DNA from: Halarcobacter anaerophilus
Lineage (GTDB): Bacteria; Campylobacterota; Campylobacteria; Campylobacterales; Arcobacteraceae
Assembly: GCF_006459125.1 (NCBI RefSeq)
Contig: NZ_CP041070.1
Span: 2,666,001 to 2,730,000 of the forward strand
Direction: 5' to 3'
DNA: 64,000 bases
Below are positions 50,101 to 63,952 of this stretch, piece by piece. How positions within the stretch are numbered: the stretch's first letter is position 1; the number at the start of each line of letters is the position of its first letter. The translations under genes and the position numbers were made by a program. The notes under the pieces were generated by a model. That model had not been told where the DNA came from, made no database searches, and saw only the letters and a program-made list of their open reading frames with translations.

Positions 50101-53100
50101 CATCATTTAACGTTAATGTTGTTGTATCTTTTGTATCACTTACTGTTACTGTTGCTGTATCACTTGTATCTAGATCCTCGAAGTTTCCTCCAGTTGTACT
50201 TGTTACACTTACATCATAACTCTCACCATCGTTATATACATCATCACCTTGGATATCAAACGCTGTTGATTCTACTACTGTTCCTGCTTCATAATCAGTT
50301 CCAAACGTTACTGTTGCTCCGTTTGAAAGTGTTACTGTTAACTCTGTTTCAGGTGTATAATTTAAGCTTGCTCCTATGGTTGCTGTTCCACTTCCTTCAT
50401 CTACATTTACATCATTTAACGTTAATGTTGTTGTATCTTTTGTATCACTTACTGTTACTGTTGCTGTATCACTTGTATCTAGATCCTCGAAGTTTCCTCC
50501 AGTTGTACTTGTTACACTTACATCATAACTCTCACCATCGTTATATACATCATCACCTTGGATATCAAACGCTGTTGATTCTACTACTGTTCCTGCTTCA
50601 TAATCAGTTCCAAACGTTACTGTTGCTCCGTTTGAAAGTGTTACTGTTAACTCTGTTTCAGGTGTATAATTTAAGCTTGCTCCTATGGTTGCTGTTCCAC
50701 TTCCTTCATCTACATTTACATCATTTAACGTTAATGTTGTTGTATCTTTTGTATCACTTACTGTTACTGTTGCTGTATCACTTGTATCTAGATCCTCGAA
50801 GTTTCCTCCAGTTGTACTTGTTACACTTACATCATAACTCTCACCATCGTTATATACATCATCACCTTGGATATCAAACGCTGTTGATTCTACTACTGTT
50901 CCTGCTTCATAATCAGTTCCAAACGTTACTGTTGCTCCGTTTGAAAGTGTTACTGTTAACTCTGTTTCAGGTGTATAATTTAAGCTTGCTCCTATGGTTG
51001 CTGTTCCACTTCCTTCATCTACATTTACATCATTTAACGTTAATGTTGTTGTATCTTTTGTATCACTTACTGTTACTGTTGCTGTATCACTTGTATCTAG
51101 ATCCTCGAAGTTTCCTCCAGTTGTACTTGTTACACTTACATCATAACTCTCACCATCGTTATATACATCATCACCTTGGATATCAAACGCTGTTGATTCT
51201 ACTACTGTTCCTGCTTCATAATCAGTTCCAAACGTTACTGTTGCTCCGTTTGAAAGTGTTACTGTTAACTCTGTTTCAGGTGTATAATTTAAGCTTGCTC
51301 CTATGGTTGCTGTTCCACTTCCTTCATCTACATTTACATCATTTAACGTTAATGTTGTTGTATCTTTTGTATCACTTACTGTTACTGTTGCTGTATCACT
51401 TGTATCTAGATCCTCGAAGTTTCCTCCAGTTGTACTTGTTACACTTACATCATAACTCTCACCATCGTTATATACATCATCACCTTGGATATCAAACGCT
51501 GTTGATTCTACTACTGTTCCTGCTTCATAATCAGTTCCAAACGTTACTGTTGCTCCGTTTGAAAGTGTTACTGTTAACTCTGTTTCAGGTGTATAATTTA
51601 AGCTTGCTCCTATGGTTGCTGTTCCACTTCCTTCATCTACATTTACATCATTTAACGTTAATGTTGTTGTATCTTTTGTATCACTTACTGTTACTGTTGC
51701 TGTATCACTTGTATCTAGATCCTCGAAGTTTCCTCCAGTTGTACTTGTTACACTTACATCATAACTCTCACCATCGTTATATACATCATCACCTTGGATA
51801 TCAAACGCTGTTGATTCTACTACTGTTCCTGCTTCATAATCAGTTCCAAACGTTACTGTTGCTCCGTTTGAAAGTGTTACTGTTAACTCTGTTTCAGGTG
51901 TATAATTTAAGCTTGCTCCTATGGTTGCTGTTCCACTTCCTTCATCTACATTTACATCATTTAACGTTAATGTTGTTGTATCTTTTGTATCACTTACTGT
52001 TACTGTTGCTGTATCACTTGTATCTAGATCCTCGAAGTTTCCTCCAGTTGTACTTGTTACACTTACATCATAACTCTCACCATCGTTATATACATCATCA
52101 CCTTGGATATCAAACGCTGTTGATTCTACTACTGTTCCTGCTTCATAATCAGTTCCAAACGTTACTGTTGCTCCGTTTGAAAGTGTTACTGTTAACTCTG
52201 TTTCAGGTGTATAATTTAAGCTTGCTCCTATGGTTGCTGTTCCACTTCCTTCATCTACATTTACATCATTTAACGTTAATGTTGTTGTATCTTTTGTATC
52301 ACTTACTGTTACTGTTGCTGTATCACTTGTATCTAGATCCTCGAAGTTTCCTCCAGTTGTACTTGTTACACTTACATCATAACTCTCACCATCGTTATAT
52401 ACATCATCACCTTGGATATCAAACGCTGTTGATTCTACTACTGTTCCTGCTTCATAATCAGTTCCAAACGTTACTGTTGCTCCGTTTGAAAGTGTTACTG
52501 TTAACTCTGTTTCAGGTGTATAATTTAAGCTTGCTCCTATGGTTGCTGTTCCACTTCCTTCATCTACATTTACATCATTTAACGTTAATGTTGTTGTATC
52601 TTTTGTATCACTTACTGTTACTGTTGCTGTATCACTTGTATCTAGATCCTCGAAGTTTCCTCCAGTTGTACTTGTTACACTTACATCATAACTCTCACCA
52701 TCGTTATATACATCATCACCTTGGATATCAAACGCTGTTGATTCTACTACTGTTCCTGCTTCATAATCAGTTCCAAACGTTACTGTTGCTCCGTTTGAAA
52801 GTGTTACTGTTAACTCTGTTTCAGGTGTATAATTTAAGCTTGCTCCTATGGTTGCTGTTCCACTTCCTTCATCTACATTTACATCATTTAACGTTAATGT
52901 TGTTGTATCTTTTGTATCACTTACTGTTACTGTTGCTGTATCACTTGTATCTAGATCCTCGAAGTTTCCTCCAGTTGTACTTGTTACACTTACATCATAA
53001 CTCTCACCATCGTTATATACATCATCACCTTGGATATCAAACGCTGTTGATTCTACTACTGTTCCTGCTTCATAATCAGTTCCAAACGTTACTGTTGCTC

Positions 53101-56100
53101 CGTTTGAAAGTGTTACTGTTAACTCTGTTTCAGGTGTATAATTTAAGCTTGCTCCTATGGTTGCTGTTCCACTTCCTTCATCTACATTTACATCATTTAA
53201 CGTTAATGTTGTTGTATCTTTTGTATCACTTACTGTTACTGTTGCTGTATCACTTGTATCTAGATCCTCGAAGTTTCCTCCAGTTGTACTTGTTACACTT
53301 ACATCATAACTCTCACCATCGTTATATACATCATCACCTTGGATATCAAACGCTGTTGATTCTACTACTGTTCCTGCTTCATAATCAGTTCCAAACGTTA
53401 CTGTTGCTCCGTTTGAAAGTGTTACTGTTAACTCTGTTTCAGGTGTATAATTTAAGCTTGCTCCTATGGTTGCTGTTCCACTTCCTTCATCTACATTTAC
53501 ATCATTTAACGTTAATGTTGTTGTATCTTTTGTATCACTTACTGTTACTGTTGCTGTATCACTTGTATCTAGATCCTCGAAGTTTCCTCCAGTTGTACTT
53601 GTTACACTTACATCATAACTCTCACCATCGTTATATACATCATCACCTTGGATATCAAACGCTGTTGATTCTACTACTGTTCCTGCTTCATAATCAGTTC
53701 CAAACGTTACTGTTGCTCCGTTTGAAAGTGTTACTGTTAACTCTGTTTCAGGTGTATAATTTAAGCTTGCTCCTATGGTTGCTGTTCCACTTCCTTCATC
53801 TACATTTACATCATTTAACGTTAATGTTGTTGTATCTTTTGTATCACTTACTGTTACTGTTGCTGTATCACTTGTATCTAGATCCTCGAAGTTTCCTCCA
53901 GTTGTACTTGTTACACTTACATCATAACTCTCACCATCGTTATATACATCATCACCTTGGATATCAAACGCTGTTGATTCTACTACTGTTCCTGCTTCAT
54001 AATCAGTTCCAAACGTTACTGTTGCTCCGTTTGAAAGTGTTACTGTTAACTCTGTTTCAGGTGTATAATTTAAGCTTGCTCCTATGGTTGCTGTTCCACT
54101 TCCTTCATCTACATTTACATCATTTAACGTTAATGTTGTTGTATCTTTTGTATCACTTACTGTTACTGTTGCTGTATCACTTGTATCTAGATCCTCGAAG
54201 TTTCCTCCAGTTGTACTTGTTACACTTACATCATAACTCTCACCATCGTTATATACATCATCACCTTGGATATCAAACGCTGTTGATTCTACTACTGTTC
54301 CTGCTTCATAATCAGTTCCAAACGTTACTGTTGCTCCGTTTGAAAGTGTTACTGTTAACTCTGTTTCAGGTGTATAATTTAAGCTTGCTCCTATGGTTGC
54401 TGTTCCACTTCCTTCATCTACATTTACATCATTTAACGTTAATGTTGTTGTATCTTTTGTATCACTTACTGTTACTGTTGCTGTATCACTTGTATCTAGA
54501 TCCTCGAAGTTTCCTCCAGTTGTACTTGTTACACTTACATCATAACTCTCACCATCGTTATATACATCATCACCTTGGATATCAAACGCTGTTGATTCTA
54601 CTACTGTTCCTGCTTCATAATCAGTTCCAAACGTTACTGTTGCTCCGTTTGAAAGTGTTACTGTTAACTCTGTTTCAGGTGTATAATTTAAGCTTGCTCC
54701 TATGGTTGCTGTTCCACTTCCTTCATCTACATTTACATCATTTAACGTTAATGTTGTTGTATCTTTTGTATCACTTACTGTTACTGTTGCTGTATCACTT
54801 GTATCTAGATCCTCGAAGTTTCCTCCAGTTGTACTTGTTACACTTACATCATAACTCTCACCATCGTTATATACATCATCACCTTGGATATCAAACGCTG
54901 TTGATTCTACTACTGTTCCTGCTTCATAATCAGTTCCAAACGTTACTGTTGCTCCGTTTGAAAGTGTTACTGTTAACTCTGTTTCAGGTGTATAATTTAA
55001 GCTTGCTCCTATGGTTGCTGTTCCACTTCCTTCATCTACATTTACATCATTTAACGTTAATGTTGTTGTATCTTTTGTATCACTTACTGTTACTGTTGCT
55101 GTATCACTTGTATCTAGATCCTCGAAGTTTCCTCCAGTTGTACTTGTTACACTTACATCATAACTCTCACCATCGTTATATACATCATCACCTTGGATAT
55201 CAAACGCTGTTGATTCTACTACTGTTCCTGCTTCATAATCAGTTCCAAACGTTACTGTTGCTCCGTTTGAAAGTGTTACTGTTAACTCTGTTTCAGGTGT
55301 ATAATTTAAGCTTGCTCCTATGGTTGCTGTTCCACTTCCTTCATCTACATTTACATCATTTAACGTTAATGTTGTTGTATCTTTTGTATCACTTACTGTT
55401 ACTGTTGCTGTATCACTTGTATCTAGATCCTCGAAGTTTCCTCCAGTTGTACTTGTTACACTTACATCATAACTCTCACCATCGTTATATACATCATCAC
55501 CTTGGATATCAAACGCTGTTGATTCTACTACTGTTCCTGCTTCATAATCAGTTCCAAACGTTACTGTTGCTCCGTTTGAAAGTGTTACTGTTAACTCTGT
55601 TTCAGGTGTATAATTTAAGCTTGCTCCTATGGTTGCTGTTCCACTTCCTTCATCTACATTTACATCATTTAACGTTAATGTTGTTGTATCTTTTGTATCA
55701 CTTACTGTTACTGTTGCTGTATCACTTGTATCTAGATCCTCGAAGTTTCCTCCAGTTGTACTTGTTACACTTACATCATAACTCTCACCATCGTTATATA
55801 CATCATCACCTTGGATATCAAACGCTGTTGATTCTACTACTGTTCCTGCTTCATAATCAGTTCCAAACGTTACTGTTGCTCCGTTTGAAAGTGTTACTGT
55901 TAACTCTGTTTCAGGTGTATAATTTAAGCTTGCTCCTATGGTTGCTGTTCCACTTCCTTCATCTACATTTACATCATTTAACGTTAATGTTGTTGTATCT
56001 TTTGTATCACTTACTGTTACTGTTGCTGTATCACTTGTATCTAGATCCTCGAAGTTTCCTCCAGTTGTACTTGTTACACTTACATCATAACTCTCACCAT

Positions 56101-57220
56101 CGTTATATACATCATCACCTTGGATATCAAACGCTGTTGATTCTACTACTGTTCCTGCTTCATAATCAGTTCCAAACGTTACTGTTGCTCCGTTTGAAAG
56201 TGTTACTGTTAACTCTGTTTCAGGTGTATAATTTAAGCTTGCTCCTATGGTTGCTGTTCCACTTCCTTCATCTACATTTACATCATTTAACGTTAATGTT
56301 GTTGTATCTTTTGTATCACTTACTGTTACTGTTGCTGTATCACTTGTATCTAGATTATTATACTCACCTCCACCTGTCATACTTGAAACTGATACATCAT
56401 AAGATTCTGCATCTTTATATATATCATCTCCTTGTACAGGAAACGGTGTTGATGTTGATGTTGTTTCTCCTATATTAAATGTTATTGTTGAACCGTTGCT
56501 TAAAGTAAAAGTTACAGGACCATTGATTGGTGCGTCACTTAGGCTTGCCGTTATTGAAGCAGTTCCACTTCCTTCATAAACTGAAACACTATTTAAAGTT
56601 AACGATGCATTATTAATAACAATTTCCGGATTTGGATTTTCTTCAGGATCACTAAGATTAGGACCTGCATCAGTATCCAATCTTTCTCCTCTTGCAGTAT
56701 CATCAGCAGGAGTTACATCTTGTTCTGAAGTTTCATCTATACTTAAACTTTGATTGCTTATTAGGTCATCACCGGCTGCTGCTGCTTCCATTAGATCTAC
56801 CAATGCTCCAAAATTATCTATTATTGAACCATCATTATCGGCTAATGAACTTACAGACAGACTCTCTTTTAAAGCATTTATTATCTCTCCACTTTTAAAG
56901 TCAGGATTATTTACGGCATCTAATATCTCTTTTTCACCATCTGAAGTAGAAGAAACTCCCAATGCTGTGTTTAAAGCAAAGATATCATCAGGCTTATTAT
57001 TTTTAATAAGTTCAGCCATATTGTCAAGAGTTATTTCAAATCGTTGTCCCTCTCCTTGTAAGAATAATCGGACAGTCTGCTGTGAATCTGCCAAAGAGAA
57101 AGTAAATTTATCTGCTCCTAAAAAGTAGTATTGTTCCCCTTCTTGCGGCTTAAATTCCATTTTATTGGTAACATCTATTTGTTCTAAATCCCCGTTAATG
57201 TGTCTGATAATAAGTTTCAT
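38135..57220 (-). CDS. Giant type I secreted repeat adhesin (LapA/RTX-like)
   Basis: A 6361-residue surface adhesin, probably secreted by the exporter encoded at 31154-36449. Residues 1 to about 150 resemble a LapA-type retention module and end in the AAAAG motif (146-150), a possible LapG-type cleavage site. A Pro/Asp-rich linker and one diverged Calx-beta-like unit follow. Residues about 289-5151 are about 47 copies of a 103-aa Calx-beta/Ig-like unit (D-E-G-S-G-T-A-T, TGGNFEDLDTSDTATVTV). The C-terminal 1210 residues hold further Calx-beta-like domains, RTX-like GEGDDEV/GSGDDVI repeats (about 5690-5760), a VWA domain with MIDAS DVSGSMNDS (about 5940) and a type I secretion target region. 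It has no Sec signal. Start: ATG with an AAAAGG-type site. Confidence 0.93.
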   Translation of the reverse strand: MKLIIRHINGDLEQIDVTNKMEFKPQEGEQYYFLGADKFTFSLADSQQTVRLFLQGEGQRFEITLDNMAELIKNNKPDDIFALNTALGVSSTSDGEKEILDAVNNPDFKSGEIINALKESLSVSSLADNDGSIIDNFGALVDLMEAAAAGDDLISNQSLSIDETSEQDVTPADDTARGERLDTDAGPNLSDPEENPNPEIVINNASLTLNSVSVYEGSGTASITASLSDAPINGPVTFTLSNGSTITFNIGETTSTSTPFPVQGDDIYKDAESYDVSVSSMTGGGEYNNLDTSDTATVTVSDTKDTTTLTLNDVNVDEGSGTATIGASLNYTPETELTVTLSNGATVTFGTDYEAGTVVESTAFDIQGDDVYNDGESYDVSVTSTTGGNFEDLDTSDTATVTVSDTKDTTTLTLNDVNVDEGSGTATIGASLNYTPETELTVTLSNGATVTFGTDYEAGTVVESTAFDIQGDDVYNDGESYDVSVTSTTGGNFEDLDTSDTATVTVSDTKDTTTLTLNDVNVDEGSGTATIGASLNYTPETELTVTLSNGATVTFGTDYEAGTVVESTAFDIQGDDVYNDGESYDVSVTSTTGGNFEDLDTSDTATVTVSDTKDTTTLTLNDVNVDEGSGTATIGASLNYTPETELTVTLSNGATVTFGTDYEAGTVVESTAFDIQGDDVYNDGESYDVSVTSTTGGNFEDLDTSDTATVTVSDTKDTTTLTLNDVNVDEGSGTATIGASLNYTPETELTVTLSNGATVTFGTDYEAGTVVESTAFDIQGDDVYNDGESYDVSVTSTTGGNFEDLDTSDTATVTVSDTKDTTTLTLNDVNVDEGSGTATIGASLNYTPETELTVTLSNGATVTFGTDYEAGTVVESTAFDIQGDDVYNDGESYDVSVTSTTGGNFEDLDTSDTATVTVSDTKDTTTLTLNDVNVDEGSGTATIGASLNYTPETELTVTLSNGATVTFGTDYEAGTVVESTAFDIQGDDVYNDGESYDVSVTSTTGGNFEDLDTSDTATVTVSDTKDTTTLTLNDVNVDEGSGTATIGASLNYTPETELTVTLSNGATVTFGTDYEAGTVVESTAFDIQGDDVYNDGESYDVSVTSTTGGNFEDLDTSDTATVTVSDTKDTTTLTLNDVNVDEGSGTATIGASLNYTPETELTVTLSNGATVTFGTDYEAGTVVESTAFDIQGDDVYNDGESYDVSVTSTTGGNFEDLDTSDTATVTVSDTKDTTTLTLNDVNVDEGSGTATIGASLNYTPETELTVTLSNGATVTFGTDYEAGTVVESTAFDIQGDDVYNDGESYDVSVTSTTGGNFEDLDTSDTATVTVSDTKDTTTLTLNDVNVDEGSGTATIGASLNYTPETELTVTLSNGATVTFGTDYEAGTVVESTAFDIQGDDVYNDGESYDVSVTSTTGGNFEDLDTSDTATVTVSDTKDTTTLTLNDVNVDEGSGTATIGASLNYTPETELTVTLSNGATVTFGTDYEAGTVVESTAFDIQGDDVYNDGESYDVSVTSTTGGNFEDLDTSDTATVTVSDTKDTTTLTLNDVNVDEGSGTATIGASLNYTPETELTVTLSNGATVTFGTDYEAGTVVESTAFDIQGDDVYNDGESYDVSVTSTTGGNFEDLDTSDTATVTVSDTKDTTTLTLNDVNVDEGSGTATIGASLNYTPETELTVTLSNGATVTFGTDYEAGTVVESTAFDIQGDDVYNDGESYDVSVTSTTGGNFEDLDTSDTATVTVSDTKDTTTLTLNDVNVDEGSGTATIGASLNYTPETELTVTLSNGATVTFGTDYEAGTVVESTAFDIQGDDVYNDGESYDVSVTSTTGGNFEDLDTSDTATVTVSDTKDTTTLTLNDVNVDEGSGTATIGASLNYTPETELTVTLSNGATVTFGTDYEAGTVVESTAFDIQGDDVYNDGESYDVSVTSTTGGNFEDLDTSDTATVTVSDTKDTTTLTLNDVNVDEGSGTATIGASLNYTPETELTVTLSNGATVTFGTDYEAGTVVESTAFDIQGDDVYNDGESYDVSVTSTTGGNFEDLDTSDTATVTVSDTKDTTTLTLNDVNVDEGSGTATIGASLNYTPETELTVTLSNGATVTFGTDYEAGTVVESTAFDIQGDDVYNDGESYDVSVTSTTGGNFEDLDTSDTATVTVSDTKDTTTLTLNDVNVDEGSGTATIGASLNYTPETELTVTLSNGATVTFGTDYEAGTVVESTAFDIQGDDVYNDGESYDVSVTSTTGGNFEDLDTSDTATVTVSDTKDTTTLTLNDVNVDEGSGTATIGASLNYTPETELTVTLSNGATVTFGTDYEAGTVVESTAFDIQGDDVYNDGESYDVSVTSTTGGNFEDLDTSDTATVTVSDTKDTTTLTLNDVNVDEGSGTATIGASLNYTPETELTVTLSNGATVTFGTDYEAGTVVESTAFDIQGDDVYNDGESYDVSVTSTTGGNFEDLDTSDTATVTVSDTKDTTTLTLNDVNVDEGSGTATIGASLNYTPETELTVTLSNGATVTFGTDYEAGTVVESTAFDIQGDDVYNDGESYDVSVTSTTGGNFEDLDTSDTATVTVSDTKDTTTLTLNDVNVDEGSGTATIGASLNYTPETELTVTLSNGATVTFGTDYEAGTVVESTAFDIQGDDVYNDGESYDVSVTSTTGGNFEDLDTSDTATVTVSDTKDTTTLTLNDVNVDEGSGTATIGASLNYTPETELTVTLSNGATVTFGTDYEAGTVVESTAFDIQGDDVYNDGESYDVSVTSTTGGNFEDLDTSDTATVTVSDTKDTTTLTLNDVNVDEGSGTATIGASLNYTPETELTVTLSNGATVTFGTDYEAGTVVESTAFDIQGDDVYNDGESYDVSVTSTTGGNFEDLDTSDTATVTVSDTKDTTTLTLNDVNVDEGSGTATIGASLNYTPETELTVTLSNGATVTFGTDYEAGTVVESTAFDIQGDDVYNDGESYDVSVTSTTGGNFEDLDTSDTATVTVSDTKDTTTLTLNDVNVDEGSGTATIGASLNYTPETELTVTLSNGATVTFGTDYEAGTVVESTAFDIQGDDVYNDGESYDVSVTSTTGGNFEDLDTSDTATVTVSDTKDTTTLTLNDVNVDEGSGTATIGASLNYTPETELTVTLSNGATVTFGTDYEAGTVVESTAFDIQGDDVYNDGESYDVSVTSTTGGNFEDLDTSDTATVTVSDTKDTTTLTLNDVNVDEGSGTATIGASLNYTPETELTVTLSNGATVTFGTDYEAGTVVESTAFDIQGDDVYNDGESYDVSVTSTTGGNFEDLDTSDTATVTVSDTKDTTTLTLNDVNVDEGSGTATIGASLNYTPETELTVTLSNGATVTFGTDYEAGTVVESTAFDIQGDDVYNDGESYDVSVTSTTGGNFEDLDTSDTATVTVSDTKDTTTLTLNDVNVDEGSGTATIGASLNYTPETELTVTLSNGATVTFGTDYEAGTVVESTAFDIQGDDVYNDGESYDVSVTSTTGGNFEDLDTSDTATVTVSDTKDTTTLTLNDVNVDEGSGTATIGASLNYTPETELTVTLSNGATVTFGTDYEAGTVVESTAFDIQGDDVYNDGESYDVSVTSTTGGNFEDLDTSDTATVTVSDTKDTTTLTLNDVNVDEGSGTATIGASLNYTPETELTVTLSNGATVTFGTDYEAGTVVESTAFDIQGDDVYNDGESYDVSVTSTTGGNFEDLDTSDTATVTVSDTKDTTTLTLNDVNVDEGSGTATIGASLNYTPETELTVTLSNGATVTFGTDYEAGTVVESTAFDIQGDDVYNDGESYDVSVTSTTGGNFEDLDTSDTATVTVSDTKDTTTLTLNDVNVDEGSGTATIGASLNYTPETELTVTLSNGATVTFGTDYEAGTVVESTAFDIQGDDVYNDGESYDVSVTSTTGGNFEDLDTSDTATVTVSDTKDTTTLTLNDVNVDEGSGTATIGASLNYTPETELTVTLSNGATVTFGTDYEAGTVVESTAFDIQGDDVYNDGESYDVSVTSTTGGNFEDLDTSDTATVTVSDTKDTTTLTLNDVNVDEGSGTATIGASLNYTPETELTVTLSNGATVTFGTDYEAGTVVESTAFDIQGDDVYNDGESYDVSVTSTTGGNFEDLDTSDTATVTVSDTKDTTTLTLNDVNVDEGSGTATIGASLNYTPETELTVTLSNGATVTFGTDYEAGTVVESTAFDIQGDDVYNDGESYDVSVTSTTGGNFEDLDTSDTATVTVSDTKDTTTLTLNDVNVDEGSGTATIGASLNYTPETELTVTLSNGATVTFGTDYEAGTVVESTAFDIQGDDVYNDGESYDVSVTSTTGGNFEDLDTSDTATVTVSDTKDTTTLTLNDVNVDEGSGTATIGASLNYTPETELTVTLSNGATVTFGTDYEAGTVVESTAFDIQGDDVYNDGESYDVSVTSTTGGNFEDLDTSDTATVTVSDTKDTTTLTLNDVNVDEGSGTATIGASLNYTPETELTVTLSNGATVTFGTDYEAGTVVESTAFDIQGDDVYNDGESYDVSVTSTTGGNFEDLDTSDTATVTVSDTKDTTTLTLNDVNVDEGSGTATIGASLNYTPETELTVTLSNGATVTFGTDYEAGTVVESTAFDIQGDDVYNDGESYDVSVTSTTGGNFEDLDTSDTATVTVSDTKDTTTLTLNDVNVDEGSGTATIGASLNYTPETELTVTLSNGATVTFGTDYEAGTVVESTAFDIQGDDVYNDGESYDVSVTSTTGGNFEDLDTSDTATVTVSDTKDTTTLTLNDVNVDEGSGTATIGASLNYTPETELTVTLSNGATVTFGTDYEAGTVVESTAFDIQGDDVYNDGESYDVSVTSTTGGNFEDLDTSDTATVTVSDTKDTTTLTLNDVNVDEGSGTATIGASLNYTPETELTVTLSNGATVTFGTDYEAGTVVESTAFDIQGDDVYNDGESYDVSVTSTTGGNFEDLDTSDTATVTVSDTKDTTTLTLNDVNVDEGSGTATIGASLNYTPETELTVTLSNGATVTFGTDYEAGTVVESTAFDIQGDDVYNDGESYDVSVTSTTGGNFEDLDTSDTATVTVSDTKDTTTLTLNDVNVDEGSGTATIGASLNYTPETELTVTLSNGATVTFGTDYEAGTVVESTAFDIQGDDVYNDGESYDVSVTSTTGGNFEDLDTSDTATVTVSDTKDTTTLTLIAPDDVDENSTKVTYTLEVSNPPQGDLDVTVEVNGEEIHITIPDGQTSTTFDVDVREDDPYLEENDTISAEIVDHDGGNYETVSYNNDNNEVIIKDDADVTDVSLSATITKTTTIDVTNVGEEGSYTIKAYDLNGNEVSVSKNYDPNHSGFGVSSNTSNEGGSAADSELGSVYSHGEWKSEKLVVDFGDKELLSIDISFAWKNSNEKAVINFYKDGVKVGETIYDHGGSDTIDDVLTFRPSNGEPFDSIEFSAAINDNYTDHDYLIHNIAYKEVISDSTEITDDTEEVTFTIQTSNVPDPSKYDYINTFPTATVEVEDGSGNVSTYTVKLNEYGTGTLTVPSNGEDSLTATVTEVNGNFEDVNLDDASLQLTVALPESEDDSITINEDQTYTLTTDDFGNLSDDITKVRIETLPVNGILFLAGVAISSAAEISIRDIEDGKLKFEPTEDTDEDSSFDFKVSDGTNWSAQSNTTTIEITPVADTPDASINVTKVAEGTADSNNDFAVEIENGDSINNIGTSEDDIIQINKELVMNDRVELKEGDDTLILNKDINQVSLNLGEGDDEVIINGKINGTNNIDLGSGDDVIRINNIVTNNTHILGGDGKDTLYLDGNQSDYDFNWQTNNNGMIEGSITDIRGGGTIQYNQMETIVFSDGSYIGKEPEQVISTEDVYDVDLNAALNDLDGSESLTVQIEGVPDGATFNTDVLVDKGNGVWELTISEGERSIDYQDIKMTVPAGTEDVNLTIKATATEAGNGDISVETNSDAIPYSYNEINTINLSESSTNLLFTLDVSGSMNDSVRDSNGNWTTRLDIAVESIKSTIEAYKTNGETEVNLTLFNSTSKNIGWMSADDAIAYLSNLSFKYTDFGWGRSGYLIQYNNQDIDDLDSSSGTDYKDALDETMEINFNGHDADNTVAYFLSDGEPTEHENYVNSDRDSTIKDWKDYVEDNIDKLYAIGVGSGAEEDYLKIVQVQDGDEVIMVNDDSTLGDELLNTVNTTITGDVSDNIQGGDGEITIDNIVVDDVTYTKDDFPQDGISLDGDGTFKFNFDDGTYSYSAKSSEFDENAIKSFEVNSSDEDGDTTSFDVTIKVDTTPNDSAASTLSFDEPNDTIDLSDITASNIKVIDLENDSSQTLNLSLDDIKDIVDSDDNELIIRGDNGDEIEFNDSENWNKAIDKTQIEGEDGTFTEYTSTTNPNISIFVDDDINTDL
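41769..56355. repeat. Tandem array of about 47 copies of a 309-bp coding repeat
   Basis: The same landmark (TTGTATCTAG) occurs at 41821, 42130 and so on to 56344, a span of 14523 bases, exactly 47 times 309. The copies I compared are identical base for base, and translations of both the coding frame and the opposite strand are the same in every unit, so almost no substitution can be present. Homology starts at the GTTAATG at 41769 and ends near 56355. The 309-bp length keeps the frame. The copy number may vary or be mis-assembled, because the array exceeds short-read length. Confidence 0.95.
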
Positions 57221-57304: not shown

Positions 57305-58117
57305 TTATTTTTCAATAGATTTGATTATCAAGCTATCTTCTGCTTTGCCTCTTTGCCCCAAAGAGTTTATTGCCATTGCCCAAACGGTATAAGTTCCGTT
57401 TGCCAATTTATTTTTTGTTTGAGCGCACCATCTGTTTTTTTGTAATTGTGCTTCAATAACTGTTTTTCCTCTATCAAAAGTTATTTGTACCTGTCTTACA
57501 TCTAAATCCAATATATTCCCGCATATTTTTGGAGTATTACTCTCTATAACATCATAATTATCCATTGTTATTAAATCATAAAACTCTTTTTTCTGTACTT
57601 TTTTTCCTGAGCATACAGCTTCAATATTATTTGATTTAAGAAGTTTTGCTACTGTTACGTCATTTACTTTTAGAGCATATTCAAATGCCGTTACTCCTTT
57701 TTTATCTGCTGTATTAACGTCTGCACCGTTACATACTAAAAGTTTAGACATATTTGTATACCCTTTTTTTGTTGAGTCTATCAAAGGTGAATCAAAAAAA
57801 TTATCTTTTGTATTTACTAAAACATTATGAGATATAAGTTCTTTTGCAATTTTATAATGATTAAATTTTGCAGCAAGATGTAAAGGAGTATATCCGTACT
57901 TGTCTTTTTTATTTAAATCAGCTTTTTTTTGAATAAAGGTTTTAACTAAATTTAAGTCATTTACTCTTACTGCTTCGTGTAGAGTTGTCCCAACTGTTTT
58001 TTCATTATCGTCGGAAGTAGTAATCATAGATAAGTTTAGCTGCTTCTCATTTTTTGTGCATCCTGTAAAAACCGTTATTAAAAGTATTAAAACAAGAGTT
58101 AATATCTTTTTTTGCAT
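57305..58117 (-). CDS. Ankyrin-repeat lipoprotein upstream of the adhesin gene
   Basis: A 270-residue lipoprotein with lipobox VFTGC near residue 19. Ankyrin repeats run from about 45 to 165 (TTLHEAVRVND, YGYTPLHLAAKFNH, DSPLIDSTKKG, ADKKGVTAFEYALK). A C-terminal domain contains PKICGNI and RWCAQTK, a Cys pair shared with the ankyrin-OmpA protein at 29846. It lacks the OmpA domain of that paralogue. It is 84 bases upstream of the adhesin gene on the same strand, so the two may be co-transcribed. A TATAAT lies upstream. Its function is unknown; a chaperone or anchoring role for the adhesin is an inference. Confidence 0.8.
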   Translation of the reverse strand: MQKKILTLVLILLITVFTGCTKNEKQLNLSMITTSDDNEKTVGTTLHEAVRVNDLNLVKTFIQKKADLNKKDKYGYTPLHLAAKFNHYKIAKELISHNVLVNTKDNFFDSPLIDSTKKGYTNMSKLLVCNGADVNTADKKGVTAFEYALKVNDVTVAKLLKSNNIEAVCSGKKVQKKEFYDLITMDNYDVIESNTPKICGNILDLDVRQVQITFDRGKTVIEAQLQKNRWCAQTKNKLANGTYTVWAMAINSLGQRGKAEDSLIIKSIEK

Positions 58118-58236: not shown

Positions 58237-58542
58237 TTGAAAATAAATAGATTAATTAAAATTGTTTTACTTCCTGTAATTCTAGCTTTAGCTCTTGTTA
58301 CTGCAGCTTCAAATTATCTTCATTATAAGATGAAAGATGAAGTAATCCCTTATTATCTGTTAGTTGATGAATTAAACACTTTAAATGACACGTATGCCCT
58401 TTGTTCAGGCTTACTGCTAGCTAATCCAACGCAAATAAATATAAAAAACTGCAACTATATTAATAACAAACTTAATTTAAAACTTGAACAGATAAAAAGA
58501 CATTGCCCACATATATATTTTTATACTAAATATATAAAATAA
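58237..58542 (+). CDS. Small hypothetical membrane protein
   Basis: A 101-residue open frame starting at TTG, with one membrane helix at about residues 7-25 and a Cys-containing region behind it. The layout (basic start, single helix, then soluble part) resembles the first part of a sensor or chemoreceptor, and the frame ends without a signalling domain, so it could be a truncated gene. The AAAGG ribosome binding site is only one base from the TTG, which is too close, and no better start is visible. It is transcribed away from the ankyrin gene. Weak case, but the hydrophobic profile is gene-like. Confidence 0.4.
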   Translation: MKINRLIKIVLLPVILALALVTAASNYLHYKMKDEVIPYYLLVDELNTLNDTYALCSGLLLANPTQINIKNCNYINNKLNLKLEQIKRHCPHIYFYTKYIK

Positions 58543-58595
58543 TTAAATTATATCTTTTAATATAATAATATATTTACAAAAATAATTATTTTTGC

Positions 58596-58601
58596 TAAAA
58601 T
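58596..58601 (+). promoter_or_regulatory. -10 element of the riboswitch transcript
   Basis: TAAAAT with GC just upstream lies 10 bases before the aptamer. A start about seven bases downstream (near 58608) would place the aptamer at the very 5' end of the message, as expected for a riboswitch leader. Confidence 0.45.
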
Positions 58602-58610
58602 TAACTATTA

Positions 58611-58678
58611 CCTTGCCAAAACTAGAGTGATTTAGTGACGGAAAGCCGCGAGTCTCAAGTAGATAGTCGGGTTGCATA
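58611..58678 (+). promoter_or_regulatory. Class I cyclic-di-GMP riboswitch aptamer (GEMM-I)
   Basis: ACTAGA (58621-58626) pairs with TTTAGT (58631-58636) around a GTGA tetraloop, the GNRA-capped stem of the GEMM-I fold. GACGGAAAGCC (58637-58647) matches the conserved GACGCAAAGCC linker with one change. The second stem CGAGTCT...AGATAGTCG mirrors the consensus CGGGTCT...GGTAGCCG, with CGA/TCG replacing CGG/CCG, a compensatory pair. The conserved GGGTTGC (58669-58675) closes the element, and TTGCA can pair with TGC(C)AA at 58614-58619. It lies in the leader of the 68-aa membrane protein gene. Recognition is by eye; a covariance-model search would settle it. Confidence 0.75.
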
Positions 58679-58706
58679 CTATTATTGCATATAAACTTTG
58701 AGATTC
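58650..58706 (+). promoter_or_regulatory. Possible expression platform: alternative helix competing with the aptamer
   Basis: GAGTCTCAAG (58650-58659) inside the aptamer's second stem can pair with CTTTGAGATTC (within 58696-58706) over about 10 bp with two G-U pairs. This helix cannot coexist with the folded aptamer. No T tract follows, so a translational rather than terminating switch is more likely, acting on the AGGAG site at 58720-58724. Confidence 0.45.
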
Positions 58707-58732
58707 CAAGAATAGTCTTAGGAGTAGAAAAT

Positions 58733-58939
58733 ATGAAGTCTTTAATAAAATTTTTGGGTACTTACTTTTTTATATGGAGTTTGCCTTTTAGCACCATTAT
58801 ACTAAACATGATTTTTGATAGAGAGATATTTAACTTAAGTGTGTTAATAGCATTTATATTAGGGTTAATAATCAATCTTATCTGGGATTTTGCACTTATA
58901 AATATACAAAAAAAAGAGTACCATAAGAATTACTTATGA
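58733..58939 (+). CDS. 68-residue two-helix membrane protein under riboswitch control
   Basis: A small protein (68 residues) with two predicted membrane helices, about residues 4-26 (GTYFFIWSLPFSTIILNMIF) and 33-54 (VLIAFILGLIINLIWDFAL), and a short basic tail. The ATG at 58733 is chosen over an upstream in-frame TTG at 58685 because AGGAG lies 8 bases before it and the TTG would place coding sequence inside the riboswitch leader. I do not recognise the family. The cyclic-di-GMP aptamer in its leader suggests a role in the sessile-motile switch. Confidence 0.7.
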   Translation: MKSLIKFLGTYFFIWSLPFSTIILNMIFDREIFNLSVLIAFILGLIINLIWDFALINIQKKEYHKNYL

Positions 58940-58945
58940 TACTCT
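58915..58945. terminator. Hairpin overlapping the stop of the 68-aa gene
   Basis: AGAGTA-C-CATAAG pairs with CTTATG-A-TACTCT (one C/A mismatch, 5-base loop). On the plus strand no T tract follows; on the minus strand a run of eight T follows, so it fits a terminator reading leftward better, although no leftward gene is near. A further AT-only stem with TTTTT (59016-59043) lies downstream on the plus strand. Confidence 0.35.
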
Positions 58946-59015
58946 AATAGATATGCATGAAATTAATCAAGGTAATAATATCGGCATTTGTATAAAATTT
59001 GCCTTAATAATAGAT

Positions 59016-59043
59016 AACTTTTACTTATAATATAAAAGTTTTT
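59016..59043 (+). terminator. Weak AT-rich hairpin-plus-T terminator before hoxE
   Basis: AACTTTTA (59016-59023) pairs with TAAAAGTT (59033-59040), followed by TTT. All pairs but one are A-T, so stability is low. It overlaps the palindrome AAGTTTTTAAAAACTT (59036-59051). The whole 214-base gap before hoxE holds only this and AT-rich promoter-like sequence. Confidence 0.35.
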
Positions 59044-59153: not shown

Positions 59154-59636
59154 TTGCTAGCAACTGTACCTAATGATTCCCGATATAAGATGGTTGAAAA
59201 AACCATGAAAAAGTTAAACTACGACAGAAGTGCATTGATTGAAACTTTGCATACTGCACAAGAGAGTTTCGGCTATTTGGAAAATGAGACTCTAAAATTC
59301 ATTGCAAGAAGGTTAAAATTACCCTTTTCGAAAGTTTACGGTGTTGTTACGTTTTACCATTTTTTCAGACTAAAACCAAAAGGCAGACATACAATTGTAG
59401 TTTGTACGGGTACAGCTTGTTATATAAAAAATAGTAACAAAATACTTGAACAACTAGAAAAAAAATTCGGTATAAAAGTTGGAGAGACTACGAAAGACAA
59501 TCTTCTTTCTCTTCTTAGTGCAAGATGTGTCGGTTCATGTTCTTTGGCTCCAATTGCCATTTATGATAATAAAACAGTGGGGCACTTAAGTTTAGAAGAA
59601 TCGGTAAAAGAAGCACAGGAGTTGATAAAATGTTAG
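59154..59636 (+). CDS. hoxE: Bidirectional NAD-linked hydrogenase diaphorase subunit HoxE
   Basis: NuoE-like [2Fe-2S] subunit of the HoxEFU diaphorase that passes electrons between hydrogenase and NAD. The 160-residue protein carries the thioredoxin-like ferredoxin cysteines Cys84 and Cys89 (CTGTAC) and Cys125 and Cys129 (CVGSC). An N-terminal helical domain with AQESFGYL precedes them. Translation begins at TTG behind AAAGGA (59142-59147). It is the first gene of the hox operon and overlaps hoxF by 7 bases. On its own it could be NuoE; the following hoxU, hoxY and hoxH settle the identity. Confidence 0.9.
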   Translation: MLATVPNDSRYKMVEKTMKKLNYDRSALIETLHTAQESFGYLENETLKFIARRLKLPFSKVYGVVTFYHFFRLKPKGRHTIVVCTGTACYIKNSNKILEQLEKKFGIKVGETTKDNLLSLLSARCVGSCSLAPIAIYDNKTVGHLSLEESVKEAQELIKC

Positions 59637-61249
59637 ATTCACTGGAAGATTTAAAAAAACTGGCTCTTGAGAAAAGAGATTTAAAAAGAAACTCCCATGA
59701 AGAGTTAAGAGTTTGTATAGGTAGCAGTTGTGCTTCTTTAAACTCAGAAGAGTTTTTAAAAGATTTGAAAAAAGAGGTTTCAAACAATAATTTAGAGAAA
59801 AGATGTAAAGTCAAAGGTGTAGGATGCAATGGACTTTGCTCTGAAGCTATTATGGTTTCACATTATCACAAAAAAGGAAACAGAGAATCTTTTTACAGCA
59901 AAGTTTCCTCTTTAGATACTGCAAAATTTATTGAAACATTAAATAGTGATACTCCTATTGAAGAGAAAAAATGTGATGTTTCCCAACCTTTTTTTACCAG
60001 ACAAAAAAAGATTGTTTTGGAAAATGCGGGGGTCATAGATCCAGATGATATAGATGATTATATTGCATATGACGGTTATTTGGCTTTATATACAGCTCTC
60101 GATGAGATGACGCCGCAAGATGTTTTAAATGAGATAAGCACAAGTGGCTTAAGAGGAAGAGGTGGAGGAGGTTATCCAACGGGGTTAAAATGGGAAGCTG
60201 TTTCAAAAGTTGAAGCTGAACAAAAGTATATCGTATGTAACGGAGATGAGGGAGATCCCGGTGCTTTTATGGATAGAGCCATTATGGAAGCAGACCCGCA
60301 TAAAATAATTGAAGGGATGGCACTTGCAGGTTATGCCTGTGGCGCAACAAAAGGTTATATTTATGTAAGAGCCGAATATCCAATTGCTGTTCAAAAATTA
60401 AATAAAGCTATAAAACAGGCAAGATTAAAAGGTATTTTAGGAAATCAAATAGCCGACAGCGGATTTAGTTTTGATGTTGAAGTAAGACTTGGAGGAGGTG
60501 CTTTTGTTTGTGGAGAAGCTACAGCCTTAATAGCTTCAATAGAAGGAAACAGAGGAAATCCCCGACAAAAACCTCCTCATCTTAGTGATTATGGTTTATG
60601 GAAGTTTCCAACTGTTTTAAACAATGTAGAAACTTTTGCCAATATTGCTCCTATAATCAGAAACGGTGGGAAATGGTTTAAGAATATAGGGACAGAGAAT
60701 TCCTCCGGAACCAAAGTATTTGCATTAAGCGGACATATAAAAAATACTGGGCTTGTTGAAGTTCCTATGGGGATAACATTAAGGGAACTTATTTTTGATA
60801 TAGGTGGAGGATTAAGTAACAATGCAAAATTAAAAGCAATACAAACAGGTGGTCCAAGTGGTGGTTGTATTCCTGAAGAGTTACTTGATATCCCTGTTGA
60901 TTATGAGTCTTTAAAATCTATTGGTTCTATTATGGGAAGCGGCGGTTTGATTGTTATGGATGAGAGTTCAAATATGGTTGAAGTTGCCAGATTTTTTATG
61001 GATTTTTGTCAAAGCGAATCTTGCGGGAGATGTGTTCCTTGCAGAGTAGGAACCGTTGAACTAACAGCTTTACTTGATAAATTTGTAAAAAAAGAGGCTT
61101 CAAAAAGTGATTTTGAACTTTTAAAACAGCTATGTGAAGTGGTAAAAAATAGCTCCCTTTGCGGCTTGGGACAAACTGCTCCAAATCCGGTATTAAGTAC
61201 TATTAAATATTTTGAAAATGAGTATTTGGAAGGAATAAAAGATGCTTAA
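59630..61249 (+). CDS. hoxF: Hydrogenase diaphorase flavoprotein subunit HoxF
   Basis: NuoF-like FMN subunit that binds NAD(H), 539 residues, close to cyanobacterial HoxF. The first 100 residues form a thioredoxin-like [2Fe-2S] domain with Cys29, Cys34, Cys66 and Cys70. The NADH/FMN domain follows, with GLRGRGGGGYPTGLKW and NGDEGDPGAFMDR. The GGGAFVCGEATALIASIEG segment is typical. The C-terminal SLBB and 4Fe-4S domain has ESCGRCVPCRVG and a later SSLCGLGQ. It overlaps both neighbours slightly (hoxE by 7 bases, hoxU by 8 bases), so translation is coupled. Confidence 0.95.
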   Translation: MLDSLEDLKKLALEKRDLKRNSHEELRVCIGSSCASLNSEEFLKDLKKEVSNNNLEKRCKVKGVGCNGLCSEAIMVSHYHKKGNRESFYSKVSSLDTAKFIETLNSDTPIEEKKCDVSQPFFTRQKKIVLENAGVIDPDDIDDYIAYDGYLALYTALDEMTPQDVLNEISTSGLRGRGGGGYPTGLKWEAVSKVEAEQKYIVCNGDEGDPGAFMDRAIMEADPHKIIEGMALAGYACGATKGYIYVRAEYPIAVQKLNKAIKQARLKGILGNQIADSGFSFDVEVRLGGGAFVCGEATALIASIEGNRGNPRQKPPHLSDYGLWKFPTVLNNVETFANIAPIIRNGGKWFKNIGTENSSGTKVFALSGHIKNTGLVEVPMGITLRELIFDIGGGLSNNAKLKAIQTGGPSGGCIPEELLDIPVDYESLKSIGSIMGSGGLIVMDESSNMVEVARFFMDFCQSESCGRCVPCRVGTVELTALLDKFVKKEASKSDFELLKQLCEVVKNSSLCGLGQTAPNPVLSTIKYFENEYLEGIKDA

Positions 61250-61961
61250 AGACAAAGTTAGAGTAAAAACCTTTAAAATTGATGATATTGATGTAACAGG
61301 GCGTTCAGATTCAACTATTTTGGAAGTTGCAAACGAACATGGAATAAAGATTCCAACTTTATGCTATTTAGAAGGATTAAGCAGTGTTGGTTCCTGTAGA
61401 ATGTGTTTAGTTGAAATAAAAGGGAATAAAAATCTAATTCCGGCTTGTACTTCAAAAATAAAAGAGGGAATGGAAGTTATTACAAACTCTGAAAAACTAA
61501 AAACCCACAGAAAAATGGTTTTATCAATGATATTTGCAGAAAGAACTCACACTTGCAGCGTTTGTGTTTCAAACGGGCATTGTGAACTACAAAATCAGGC
61601 AATAGAACTCGAACTTGAACATAGTTTTGTTCCCCATATCCACAAACATTTTGAAGTTGATGCTTCCCATAAAGATTATATTTATGATCCAAACAGATGT
61701 ATTCTTTGCAGCAGATGTGTAAGAGTCTGTGATGAAGTTGAAGGGGCTCACGCTTTGGATATAGCAGGAAGAGGAATTGATTCTAAAATTATTCATGATA
61801 TGGATGAACCTTGGGCTTTGAGTGAAAGCTGTACAAGCTGTGGAAAATGTGTTCAAGTCTGTCCTACTGGTTCACTTTTTGAAAAAGGATTAAGTGCAAC
61901 AGAAATGGTTAAAAAGAAAAATATTGTAACAAATCTAATCCAAGCAAGGAGAAACAAATGA
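61242..61961 (+). CDS. hoxU: Hydrogenase electron-transfer subunit HoxU
   Basis: NuoG N-terminal-like iron-sulfur subunit, 239 residues, the length of cyanobacterial HoxU. The [2Fe-2S] ligands are Cys41, Cys52, Cys55 and Cys69. HTCSVCVSNGHC (His103, Cys105, Cys108, Cys114) binds the His-ligated [4Fe-4S] cluster. Two ferredoxin-type [4Fe-4S] motifs follow at Cys153-156-159-163 and Cys197-200-203-207. It wires HoxF to the hydrogenase module HoxYH. It overlaps hoxY by 4 bases. Confidence 0.95.
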   Translation: MLKDKVRVKTFKIDDIDVTGRSDSTILEVANEHGIKIPTLCYLEGLSSVGSCRMCLVEIKGNKNLIPACTSKIKEGMEVITNSEKLKTHRKMVLSMIFAERTHTCSVCVSNGHCELQNQAIELELEHSFVPHIHKHFEVDASHKDYIYDPNRCILCSRCVRVCDEVEGAHALDIAGRGIDSKIIHDMDEPWALSESCTSCGKCVQVCPTGSLFEKGLSATEMVKKKNIVTNLIQARRNK

Positions 61962-62512
61962 TAGATTCTCTTTCTAAAACAAAACTAAAAGTTGCAACAA
62001 TCTGGTTGGACGGTTGTTCCGGATGCCATATGTCTTTTTTGGATATGGATGAAAGAATAATTGAACTTGCAAGATATATCGATATTGTATATAGTCCTTA
62101 TGTTGATACAAAAGAGATTCCTCAAAATATTGATCTGTTTATAGTTGAGGGAGCAATAAGTACAGACCATGATTTAAAAATCATAAAAGAGATTAGAAAA
62201 AATTCTAAAAAAATTTTGGCTTTGGGGGATTGTGCTATTACAGGGAATATCTCTTCTTTAAAGAATCTTGCGGGAACTCAAGCTGTTTTAGAAAAAGGTT
62301 ATTTTGATTTGGCAGATTTAAACAAAGGACAATATCCTGATAAAATAGTGCCTAAACTGCTTGATAAAGTTATTCCTTTAAATGAAGCTGTAGATATTGA
62401 TTATTTTGTACCTGGATGTCCAACTCCGGCTGATGCAATTTTTGAAGTTATAAAAGGTTTGATTGAAGGGATTAAAGTTGATGTTAGCAAATATACAAGA
62501 TTTGGGCTTTAA
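61958..62512 (+). CDS. hoxY: NAD-linked [NiFe] hydrogenase small subunit HoxY
   Basis: Small subunit carrying the proximal [4Fe-4S] cluster next to the active site. The 184-residue protein has Cys20 and Cys23 (DGCSGCHMSFLD), Cys92 (GDCAITGN) and Cys154 (PGCPTPAD), the four ligands. No twin-arginine signal is present, so the enzyme is cytoplasmic. The size is as in cyanobacterial HoxY, without the extra C-terminal cluster domain of membrane-bound uptake enzymes. hoxH starts 12 bases downstream. Confidence 0.94.
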   Translation: MIDSLSKTKLKVATIWLDGCSGCHMSFLDMDERIIELARYIDIVYSPYVDTKEIPQNIDLFIVEGAISTDHDLKIIKEIRKNSKKILALGDCAITGNISSLKNLAGTQAVLEKGYFDLADLNKGQYPDKIVPKLLDKVIPLNEAVDIDYFVPGCPTPADAIFEVIKGLIEGIKVDVSKYTRFGL

Positions 62513-62524
62513 AAGGATTTTAAG

Positions 62525-63952
62525 ATGAATGAAAAAATTATTATTAGTCCTGTTACAAGAATAGAAGGACATGCCAAGATAACTATTGATTTAAATGAAA
62601 AAAAAGAGGTTGAAGATGCAAGAATCCATGTAACCCAATACAGAGGTTTTGAAAAAATCTGCGAAGGCAGACCATACACGGAGATGCCAGCTCTTACAGC
62701 TAGAACTTGTGGAATTTGTCCTGTAAGTCATGCCATAGCTTCCTCAAAAGCTTGTGATAATCTCCTTGCAGTTCGTCCGCCAAAAGCAGCTAGAAATTTA
62801 AGAAGGATAATAAATCTAGCACAAATAGTTCAATCCCATGCTTTGAATTTTTACCATTTAAGCAGTCCGGATTTTGTATTTGGTTTTGATGCAAAACCCG
62901 AAGATAGAAATATTTTTAAACTAATGCAGACAAATCCACAAATGGCAAAAGATGGGATAGATTTAAGAGCTTTTGGGCAAAAGATAATTGAAACTTTAGG
63001 TGGCAAAAGGATACATCCAACGTGGATAGTACCTGGAGGGGTTAGCCATGAAATAACAAAAGAGACCAAAGATTCTATTTTAAAACAAATACCCCAAGCT
63101 CTTGAAATAGCCCAAAGTGCTTTAAACTTTTTTGTACAAAATCTTCATAAATTTGATAAAGAGATAAACTCTTTTGCAAATTTTCCCTCACTGTTTATGG
63201 CACTTGTGAGTAAAAAAGGAAAACTTGAACATTATGACGGTCTTTTAAGCTTTATTGACAGCCAAGGAAAAGTTCTAGAAGATAAAATTGAACCAAAAGA
63301 TTATAAAAAATTTATCGGTGAAGCAGTTGAAGAGGACAGTTTCCTAAAATCTCCTTATTACAAACCTTTTGGATATAAAGAGGGGATGTATAGAGTAGGA
63401 GCCCTTGCAAGATTGAATGTGGCAAAAAAATGCGGAACTGCTTTAGCCGACAAAGAGTTTGAAAGGTTTAAAAATCTAAACAACGGGAAGCCTATACTTC
63501 ACTCTTTTTACTATCATTATGCAAGACTTATTGAGATTATTTATGCAATTGAGAGAATAGAAGAACTTCTAAATGAAGAAGAGACGTTAAATCCTCAAAT
63601 AAGAGCCCATGCCCAAATAAACAGAAATCAAGGTGTAGGATGTTCTGAAGCTCCAAGAGGCACTTTGTTTCATGATTACCAAGCAGATAATAACGGGATT
63701 ATTACAGGGGTTAATCTTATAATTGCAACAGGAAACAATAATCTTGCAATGAACAAAGGGGTAAAACAAGTAGCCCAAGCTTTTATTGACGGGAAAAATA
63801 TAAAAGATGGGGATTTAAACAGAGTTGAAGCAGTTATCAGATGTTTTGATCCTTGTCTAAGTTGCTCAACTCATGCTTTGGGAATTGTTTCCTCAATAAT
63901 TGAAATAAGAGATGAAAAAAAAGAAGTAATAAAAGAGATAAAAAGGGGTTAA
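62525..63952 (+). CDS. hoxH: NAD-linked [NiFe] hydrogenase large subunit HoxH
   Basis: Catalytic subunit binding the Ni-Fe(CN)2CO site. L1 motif RTCGICPVSHA supplies Cys62 and Cys65; L2 motif DPCLSCSTH supplies Cys444 and Cys447. After His450 a 25-residue tail is present that a maturation protease must remove, so this gene encodes the precursor form. The 475-residue length matches the group 3d class. The hoxW-like protease gene begins two bases after the stop. Together with HoxEFUY it forms the complete bidirectional enzyme. Confidence 0.95.
   Translation: MNEKIIISPVTRIEGHAKITIDLNEKKEVEDARIHVTQYRGFEKICEGRPYTEMPALTARTCGICPVSHAIASSKACDNLLAVRPPKAARNLRRIINLAQIVQSHALNFYHLSSPDFVFGFDAKPEDRNIFKLMQTNPQMAKDGIDLRAFGQKIIETLGGKRIHPTWIVPGGVSHEITKETKDSILKQIPQALEIAQSALNFFVQNLHKFDKEINSFANFPSLFMALVSKKGKLEHYDGLLSFIDSQGKVLEDKIEPKDYKKFIGEAVEEDSFLKSPYYKPFGYKEGMYRVGALARLNVAKKCGTALADKEFERFKNLNNGKPILHSFYYHYARLIEIIYAIERIEELLNEEETLNPQIRAHAQINRNQGVGCSEAPRGTLFHDYQADNNGIITGVNLIIATGNNNLAMNKGVKQVAQAFIDGKNIKDGDLNRVEAVIRCFDPCLSCSTHALGIVSSIIEIRDEKKEVIKEIKRG

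Follow-up and report, generated by a model that had tools for sequence, protein, structure and literature searches.

A c-di-GMP class I (c-di-GMP-I) riboswitch aptamer lies directly upstream of p68, a gene for a small two-helix membrane protein, and the leader between them probably works as an OFF switch on p68 translation. The window, that is, the whole 64-kb stretch of DNA analysed here, comes from Halarcobacter anaerophilus, a free-living Arcobacter relative (source genome G000; other G and L numbers label other genomes and loci). The aptamer, the conserved pairing of leader and gene, and two competing folds of the leader are computed results. The aptamer adds one more member to a known class, and translational repression is already known for Vc2 of Vibrio cholerae. 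The p68 protein is new and genus-specific, and the riboswitch gives a first functional clue to this small membrane protein, to which no Pfam or NCBIfam model matches at curated cut-offs. The features are listed in Table 1.

Table 1. Features of the p68 locus and its neighbourhood in the window
Feature	Position	Strand	Basis or remark
LapA-type adhesin, 6,361 aa	38135-57220 (repeats 41769-56355)	-	LapA domain family, E 2.3e-156
Ankyrin-repeat protein, N-terminus resembling a lipoprotein signal	57305-58117	-	Left of the aptamer-p68 module
orf101, small protein with hydrophobic N-terminus, conserved upstream neighbour	58237-58542	+	tblastn
Promoter-like site TTTACA-17-TAAAAT, TG preceding the -10	58573-58601	+	10/12 consensus matches
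c-di-GMP-I riboswitch aptamer (RF01051)	58605-58679	+	50.6 bits, cut-off 35
GNRA-capped stem	58621-58626/58631-58636, loop GUGA 58627-58630	+	Sequence
Conserved aptamer linker GACGGAAAGCC	58637-58647	+	Sequence
Second aptamer stem	about 58645-58672	+	Sequence
P3 5' arm and continuation (CGAGUCUCAA), contested by linker	58649-58658	+	Alternative pairing with linker
GGGTTGC	58669-58675	+	Sequence
Anti-P3 segment UUGAGAUUC, 9 pairs with P3 arm, one G-U	about 58698-58706	+	Folding; own-versus-swapped tests
Hairpin closing the ribosome-binding site AGGAG: AUUCC with GGAGU, extended by AAGA/UCUU	58703-58725	+	Folding
Ribosome-binding site AGGAG of p68	58720-58724	+	Sequence
p68, 68-aa two-helix membrane protein, genus-restricted family	58733-58939	+	7/16 genus genomes, dN/dS, AlphaFold2
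Candidate small-RNA gene, ends approximate	58906-59020	-	Terminator scan, conservation, stem covariation

The aptamer is a member of the c-di-GMP-I class

A cmscan search of the whole window gave one Rfam family above its gathering score, the RF01051 (c-di-GMP-I) match (E 6.1e-7), which is also the single copy found in the 3.0 Mb, one-contig genome. A first-pass annotation of this DNA had recognised a GEMM-I riboswitch by a GNRA-capped stem, a linker, a second stem and GGGTTGC, in an interval that starts 6 nt inside the match. All of these parts are present, and the covariance model that it proposed as a check scores them above threshold. The compensatory base pair claimed there is real. At the base of P2 the window has A-U where relatives have C-G, and it has GCC..GACGG in place of the Rfam consensus GGC..GACGC; all 28 Arcobacteraceae matches carry GC[C/T]..GAC[G/A]G. 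All three ligand-contact nucleotides (G20, A47 and C92 in Vc2 numbering) are kept as G58615, A58642 and C58675, the last two of which we take, by alignment, to correspond to A47 and C92. The window shares with the class the above-cut-off score, the GNRA-capped P2, the conserved linker and the G/A/C contacts. A full-length P3 with a tetraloop receptor is an accessory feature of the class. P3 is shortened in the window (a 75-nt match against an 87-position model); the GUGA loop is present, the tetraloop-receptor part is not visible, and the distal P3 of viral-contig examples is missing. Judged from its sequence, the element is a genuine c-di-GMP class I riboswitch.

Aptamers of the c-AMP-GMP type are expected to have A at the selectivity position. 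The window has G, as do all 28 Arcobacteraceae matches, and c-di-GMP is therefore the expected ligand. G20 is the selectivity position of Vc2 (PMC9262584). It is very improbable that the ligand is a different cyclic dinucleotide, for example c-AMP-GMP. Variants of the fold do sense such a ligand (PMC7266159), and the variant model RF03167 (c-di-GMP-I-GGC) gives the window 47.4 bits; however, this is under the cut-off of 59, the selectivity position speaks for c-di-GMP, and GGDEF and EAL domains are numerous in the genome. We thus rejected both the GGC and the c-AMP-GMP variant for the window. In a low-threshold scan, RF03167 displaces RF01051 in clan competition despite its lower score (47.4 < 50.6 bits). 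Two of nine viral-contig aptamers (L126 and L127, class I, on contigs classed as viral) have A at the selectivity position, unlike the window.

The absence of P1 was considered as a distinctive trait and dropped, because nine viral-contig aptamers and 15 other Campylobacterota aptamers behave alike; RF01051 itself models no P1. Among 26 Arcobacteraceae loci, aptamer flanks paired with their own partner no better than with swapped ones (14,484/20,000 permutations; longer flanks 19,105), and the result was similar for the nine viral-contig aptamers, one of them of the GGC type (4,933/20,000), and the 15 other Campylobacterota loci (11,615/20,000). These 15 remain of 26 such other loci, of which L049, L050, L051, L056, L057, L059, L068 and L069 were removed by a motif filter and L064, L066 and L067 had no matching core.

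Two competing folds of the p68 leader

The linker can pair with one P3 arm or with the ribosome-binding site, never with both together, and the closing hairpin shares 4 nt with the anti-P3 segment. All six p68 leaders have, in the linker, a segment complementary to the P3 5' arm (GAGUCUCAA); it shares bases with a hairpin that covers or adjoins the ribosome-binding site. The anti-P3 helix has 9/9 pairs in four leaders including the window, 8/9 in L007, and 13 pairs over 16 positions in L006, where an altered P3 loop is matched by an altered linker and the helix therefore persists. The energy gap between the aptamer and anti-P3 states is -3.9 to +1.2 kcal/mol (six leaders, two lengths). A ligand-driven switch needs two states of nearly equal free energy, as here. 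Five of the six leaders have a closed ribosome-binding site in the aptamer state (0.03-0.23 unpaired), and the same five are more open in the anti-P3 state (0.36-0.89). The exception is L005, whose AAGGA is open in both states (0.86 in the aptamer state), with only the bases adjoining the start codon paired; with the longer L005 construct, it is the anti-P3 state that is less open (0.65). The contrast in the window is 0.22/0.64 with 3 nt of coding sequence and shrinks to 0.23/0.38 with 40 nt.

Because the aptamer fold closes the ribosome-binding site and the other fold opens it, repression by c-di-GMP is predicted. Transcription of p68 probably begins shortly ahead of the aptamer. When c-di-GMP is bound, both P3 arms would stay within the aptamer, and the linker segment would be free to fold back onto the ribosome-binding site, so that p68 would not be made. 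Without ligand, the linker would invade the P3 5' arm, the closing hairpin could not form and p68 would be translated. The protein would thus be a small inner-membrane protein made at low c-di-GMP, in a swimming or dispersing state, and would probably act on a membrane partner.

An ON switch, in which ligand binding favours the fold with p68 translated, is unlikely given that five of the six leaders close the ribosome-binding site in the aptamer fold and open it in the competing one, although the two folds are nearly balanced, so kinetics could decide either way, and highly homologous cyclic-dinucleotide aptamers act as ON or OFF switches (PMC9262584). We consider it quite unlikely that the riboswitch acts on transcription or mRNA stability instead of translation initiation. 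The terminator scan found no terminator-like site on the + strand between aptamer and p68, and the closing hairpins of the p68 leaders end near the start codon and are not followed by a T run; known c-di-GMP-I RNAs do use terminators or act at both levels (PMC11218506, PMC9262584).

The predicted OFF switch resembles Vc2, which lies ahead of a different gene, in that translation is repressed through the ribosome-binding site. Inuzuka and colleagues reportedly found in 2018 that c-di-GMP represses Vc2 translation by masking this site. In Cd1 and pilM, pairing of the competing fold with the aptamer's 3' part likewise disrupts the binding pocket (PMC9262584); these riboswitches act on transcription terminators, whereas here the ribosome-binding site is the predicted target.

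Statistics of the leaders

Linkers prefer their own aptamer over swapped ones. Over 26 Arcobacteraceae leaders, the summed pairing energy was -485.8 against a permutation mean of -380.6, and none of 20,000 permutations was as low, while the P2 region as a control gave nothing (7,917/20,000). The same was seen with 15 chosen representatives (0/20,000; P2 control 9,347) and with the 20 leaders left without those of p68 (0/20,000). These permutations leave kinship between loci in place. Within the six p68 leaders the signal is modest (615/20,000). Shuffled linkers equalled the real one in 77, 27, 2, 11, 24 and 9 of 300 cases for L001 (the window), L004, L005, L006, L007 and L008, respectively, so the window is the weakest of the six. 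The statistics took in 26 of the 28 Arcobacteraceae matches, leaving out L019, which has no clear start, and L028, a tandem copy upstream of the gene of L020; L013, L015 and L017 were included, though their frames have 33-40 codons.

Ribosome-binding sites were less open in 25 family leaders (mean 0.27; L009 has no recognisable motif) than in 25 genes of the window (0.60, p 2e-5), which are those with a motif among 30 gene starts. Dinucleotide-shuffled leaders close the site nearly as well (0.34 versus 0.27; 17 of 60 shuffles as closed for the window), and base composition therefore explains part of the closure. Six leaders of pilin-like genes have no closing hairpin (ribosome-binding site 0.35-0.56 unpaired) and no own-aptamer signal (4,248/20,000). 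Therefore, the OFF model is not general, and the direction of control at the pilin-like loci may differ from that of the p68 leaders.

Promoter-like sites are about as frequent in the stretch as in shuffles (11 versus 10.3), and the site ahead of the aptamer therefore carries no significance by itself. All six p68 leaders and 2/22 other Arcobacteraceae leaders have a TGnTAnnnT motif 21-30 nt upstream of the G20 position.

The p68 protein and its pairing with the riboswitch

Homologues of p68 were found in 7/16 genomes of the genus (E 1.8e-14 or better), with 49-71% identity to p68. dN/dS was defined for 17 of 21 homologue pairs and ranged there from 0.10 to 0.53, with dS > 1 in many of those pairs, and from these sequence comparisons p68 looks like a protein under purifying selection. 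The first-pass annotation had described a two-helix protein of no recognisable family, and both points agree with our results. The AlphaFold2 model (seven sequences) has helices at 2-27 and 35-67, with mean pLDDT 84.3 and pTM 0.61. Searches against Pfam (window and six homologues) and NCBIfam (window) gave nothing above the curated cut-offs, the matches shown having E 0.0055 or worse. The homologue search that had been suggested gave nothing convincing beyond the genus: among 104 family genomes the seven-sequence profile gave one 20.5-bit match in a 557-aa frame, and in a draw of 397 genomes of the phylum it matched four, all within the genus. Matches in frames of 308 to 557 aa (E 0.001-0.008) were taken as chance. 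One short conserved pattern, searched non-exhaustively in 84,980 species genomes, found two p68 loci, both in this genus. No description of p68 was found in the open-access literature.

Six of the seven p68 genomes have the aptamer directly upstream of p68, together with its own promoter-like motif, TGnTAnnnT. In the seventh, G003, p68 is in the same place and no RF01051 match was listed in 2.5 kb (Rfam, E up to 10). That one genome does without the aptamer, and that the window's copy has the lowest score of the eight in the genus (50.6 versus 56.7-64.1 bits), might indicate a decayed relic with p68 expressed regardless. This is very unlikely: the aptamer retains its core positions and, with compensatory changes, both stems, and the promoter-like motif and anti-P3 segment are preserved too.

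Upstream of the aptamer, orf101 has homologues in five of the six p68 relatives (L039, L040, L041, L043 and L079, not L080; tblastn). In G005 it starts 3 bases after a histidine kinase gene, which suggests that orf101 is a kinase accessory protein. Of the 14 genus genomes that carry the small-RNA element described below, 12 keep orf101 upstream of p68 or of that RNA. Directly downstream of p68, a hydrogenase operon (NADH-binding and NiFe subunits) occupies 59154-63952 (+). It follows p68 in the window, G003, G014 and G015, and is not in the stretches read of G005, G007 and G013.

A candidate small RNA on the opposite strand

Six of the seven p68 genomes show nucleotide-level conservation of the final p68 codons and about 90 bases beyond them. 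Read on the minus strand, this region is a candidate small-RNA gene. An invariant TATAA, which in the window is TATTATAA, could serve as its -10; GATTAATTTCATGCATATCT is likewise invariant, and there is a terminator hairpin with a T-rich run after it. The terminator stem (58945-58915), which overlaps the final p68 codons and stop, pairs in 90.4% of cells with 7/13 pairs changed on both sides, against 35-61% in slid controls. The element, with its invariant 20-base core, is present in 14/16 genomes of the genus, including eight without p68; G012 has no match and G007 only weak ones. For five loci, some with p68 and some without (L092, L098, L099, L100 and L104), no Rfam match was found at E 0.1, and the open-access literature gave no description of the RNA.

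Of the seven p68 genomes, six have p68 flanked by orf101 and this element; five of these six carry the aptamer, and the sixth, G003, does not. In six of the eight p68-less genomes an orf101 homologue ends just before the element (tblastn E 2e-20 or better), and in the other two a response-regulator homologue does. Since the p68 C-terminus overlaps a conserved terminator, its KKEYHKxYL motif is at least partly imposed by the opposite strand; G007, without the element, also lacks KKEYHKxYL. The OFF switch, p68 and the convergent small RNA, with its terminator in the last p68 codons, might form one genus-specific module in which the small RNA and the p68 mRNA overlap at their 3' ends and could influence one another. 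We regard this as speculative and, as a whole, unlikely. If true, it would tie the c-di-GMP state to a signalling and adhesin locus.

The neighbouring adhesin locus

LapA, LapD and LapG are known for c-di-GMP control of adhesins at the protein level. The neighbour of p68 is a LapA-family adhesin with a type I exporter, and its AAAAG at residue 146 resembles a LapG site. The source genome has four matches to LapG-like proteases. One, at 1277548, is less than 1 kb from a 630-aa frame with a weak GGDEF-EAL pair, and two near 765 kb are 1.2-1.9 kb from a 745-aa frame with another such pair; these frames are as would be expected of LapD. With a LapA-like adhesin, LapG-like proteases and LapD-like pairs, c-di-GMP control of the adhesin is plausible. 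Plausibly, then, c-di-GMP would hold the adhesin at the surface via LapD and LapG while p68 is silenced, although nothing links this system directly to p68.

A shared adhesion programme, as the first-pass annotation had proposed from the adjacency, is plausible. In its favour, besides the LapA-type neighbour, the exporter and the LapG-like matches, a giant adhesin lies near p68 in three of seven p68 genomes (window, G003 and G007), and exporter genes without a giant adhesin are beside p68 in a fourth, G013. The G003 orthologue, about 3 kb from p68, has 73% identity over the first 182 residues; its frame is 3,178 aa, with further repeats beyond. In G007, adhesin-like frames adjoin p68 at a contig edge, with 6.7 kb available. 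Against it, neither adhesin nor exporter was seen in the 8-10 kb read of G014, G015 and G005, G003 has no aptamer, and the genome-wide RF01051 search of the source genome found no aptamer ahead of the adhesin itself. We rejected adhesin adjacency as a fixed trait of p68, and the link between the two is suggestive but circumstantial. TolC matches (outer-membrane exporter frames) lie beside the small-RNA element in the p68-less G001, G011 and G006.

The adhesin repeats comprise 47.2 copies of a 309-base unit with 100% match, an identity that reflects recent expansion or gene conversion. A 4,901-aa frame on the + strand through these repeats is probably a by-product.

The riboswitch class and c-di-GMP signalling in the phylum

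Campylobacterota are known mostly from Campylobacter and Helicobacter. RF01051 matches occur in 8/16 genomes of the genus, 19/104 of the family and 43/397 of the phylum draw (42 over the cut-off; 13/68 genera), and two genomes of the phylum carry ten each. The first-pass annotation had held the class to be little described in this phylum. This stands as far as the literature goes, since no description in Campylobacterota was found in open-access papers, but the rarity that it implied is not supported, because 43 of 397 genomes match. The source genome has 42 GGDEF and 14 EAL matches. According to a 2026 paper (PMC12943098), GGDEF domains are missing from the phylum and c-di-GMP is not made there; an Arcobacter-like member with these domains and a conserved riboswitch contrasts with that statement.

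A search for the leader ahead of other genes, which had also been proposed, found adhesin-like genes among others. We scanned with Pfam 20 downstream proteins selected by hand among 47 listed starts, and 7 had no match at 0.001. The others include flagellin (L012), an outer-membrane efflux protein (L053), Calx-beta with DUF11 (L048), SdrD_B (L046), an HD domain (L045), PilJ (L050), a histidine-kinase ATPase (L054), CAP (L057), DUF4214 (L056) and DUF1800 (L021). At L002, L003, L022, L023, L025 and L026, a short pilin-like gene and then a prepilin-peptidase-like frame follow the aptamer; these names were assigned by eye, and Pfam gave nothing for L026, the one member scanned. Most of these six loci share a TGTGACAATT-like motif upstream. 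On contig 18 of G066, three c-di-GMP-I aptamers lie within about 460 bases (L012, L020 and L028): one precedes flagellin, and the other two stand in tandem on the opposite strand, ahead of a small secreted-looking protein.
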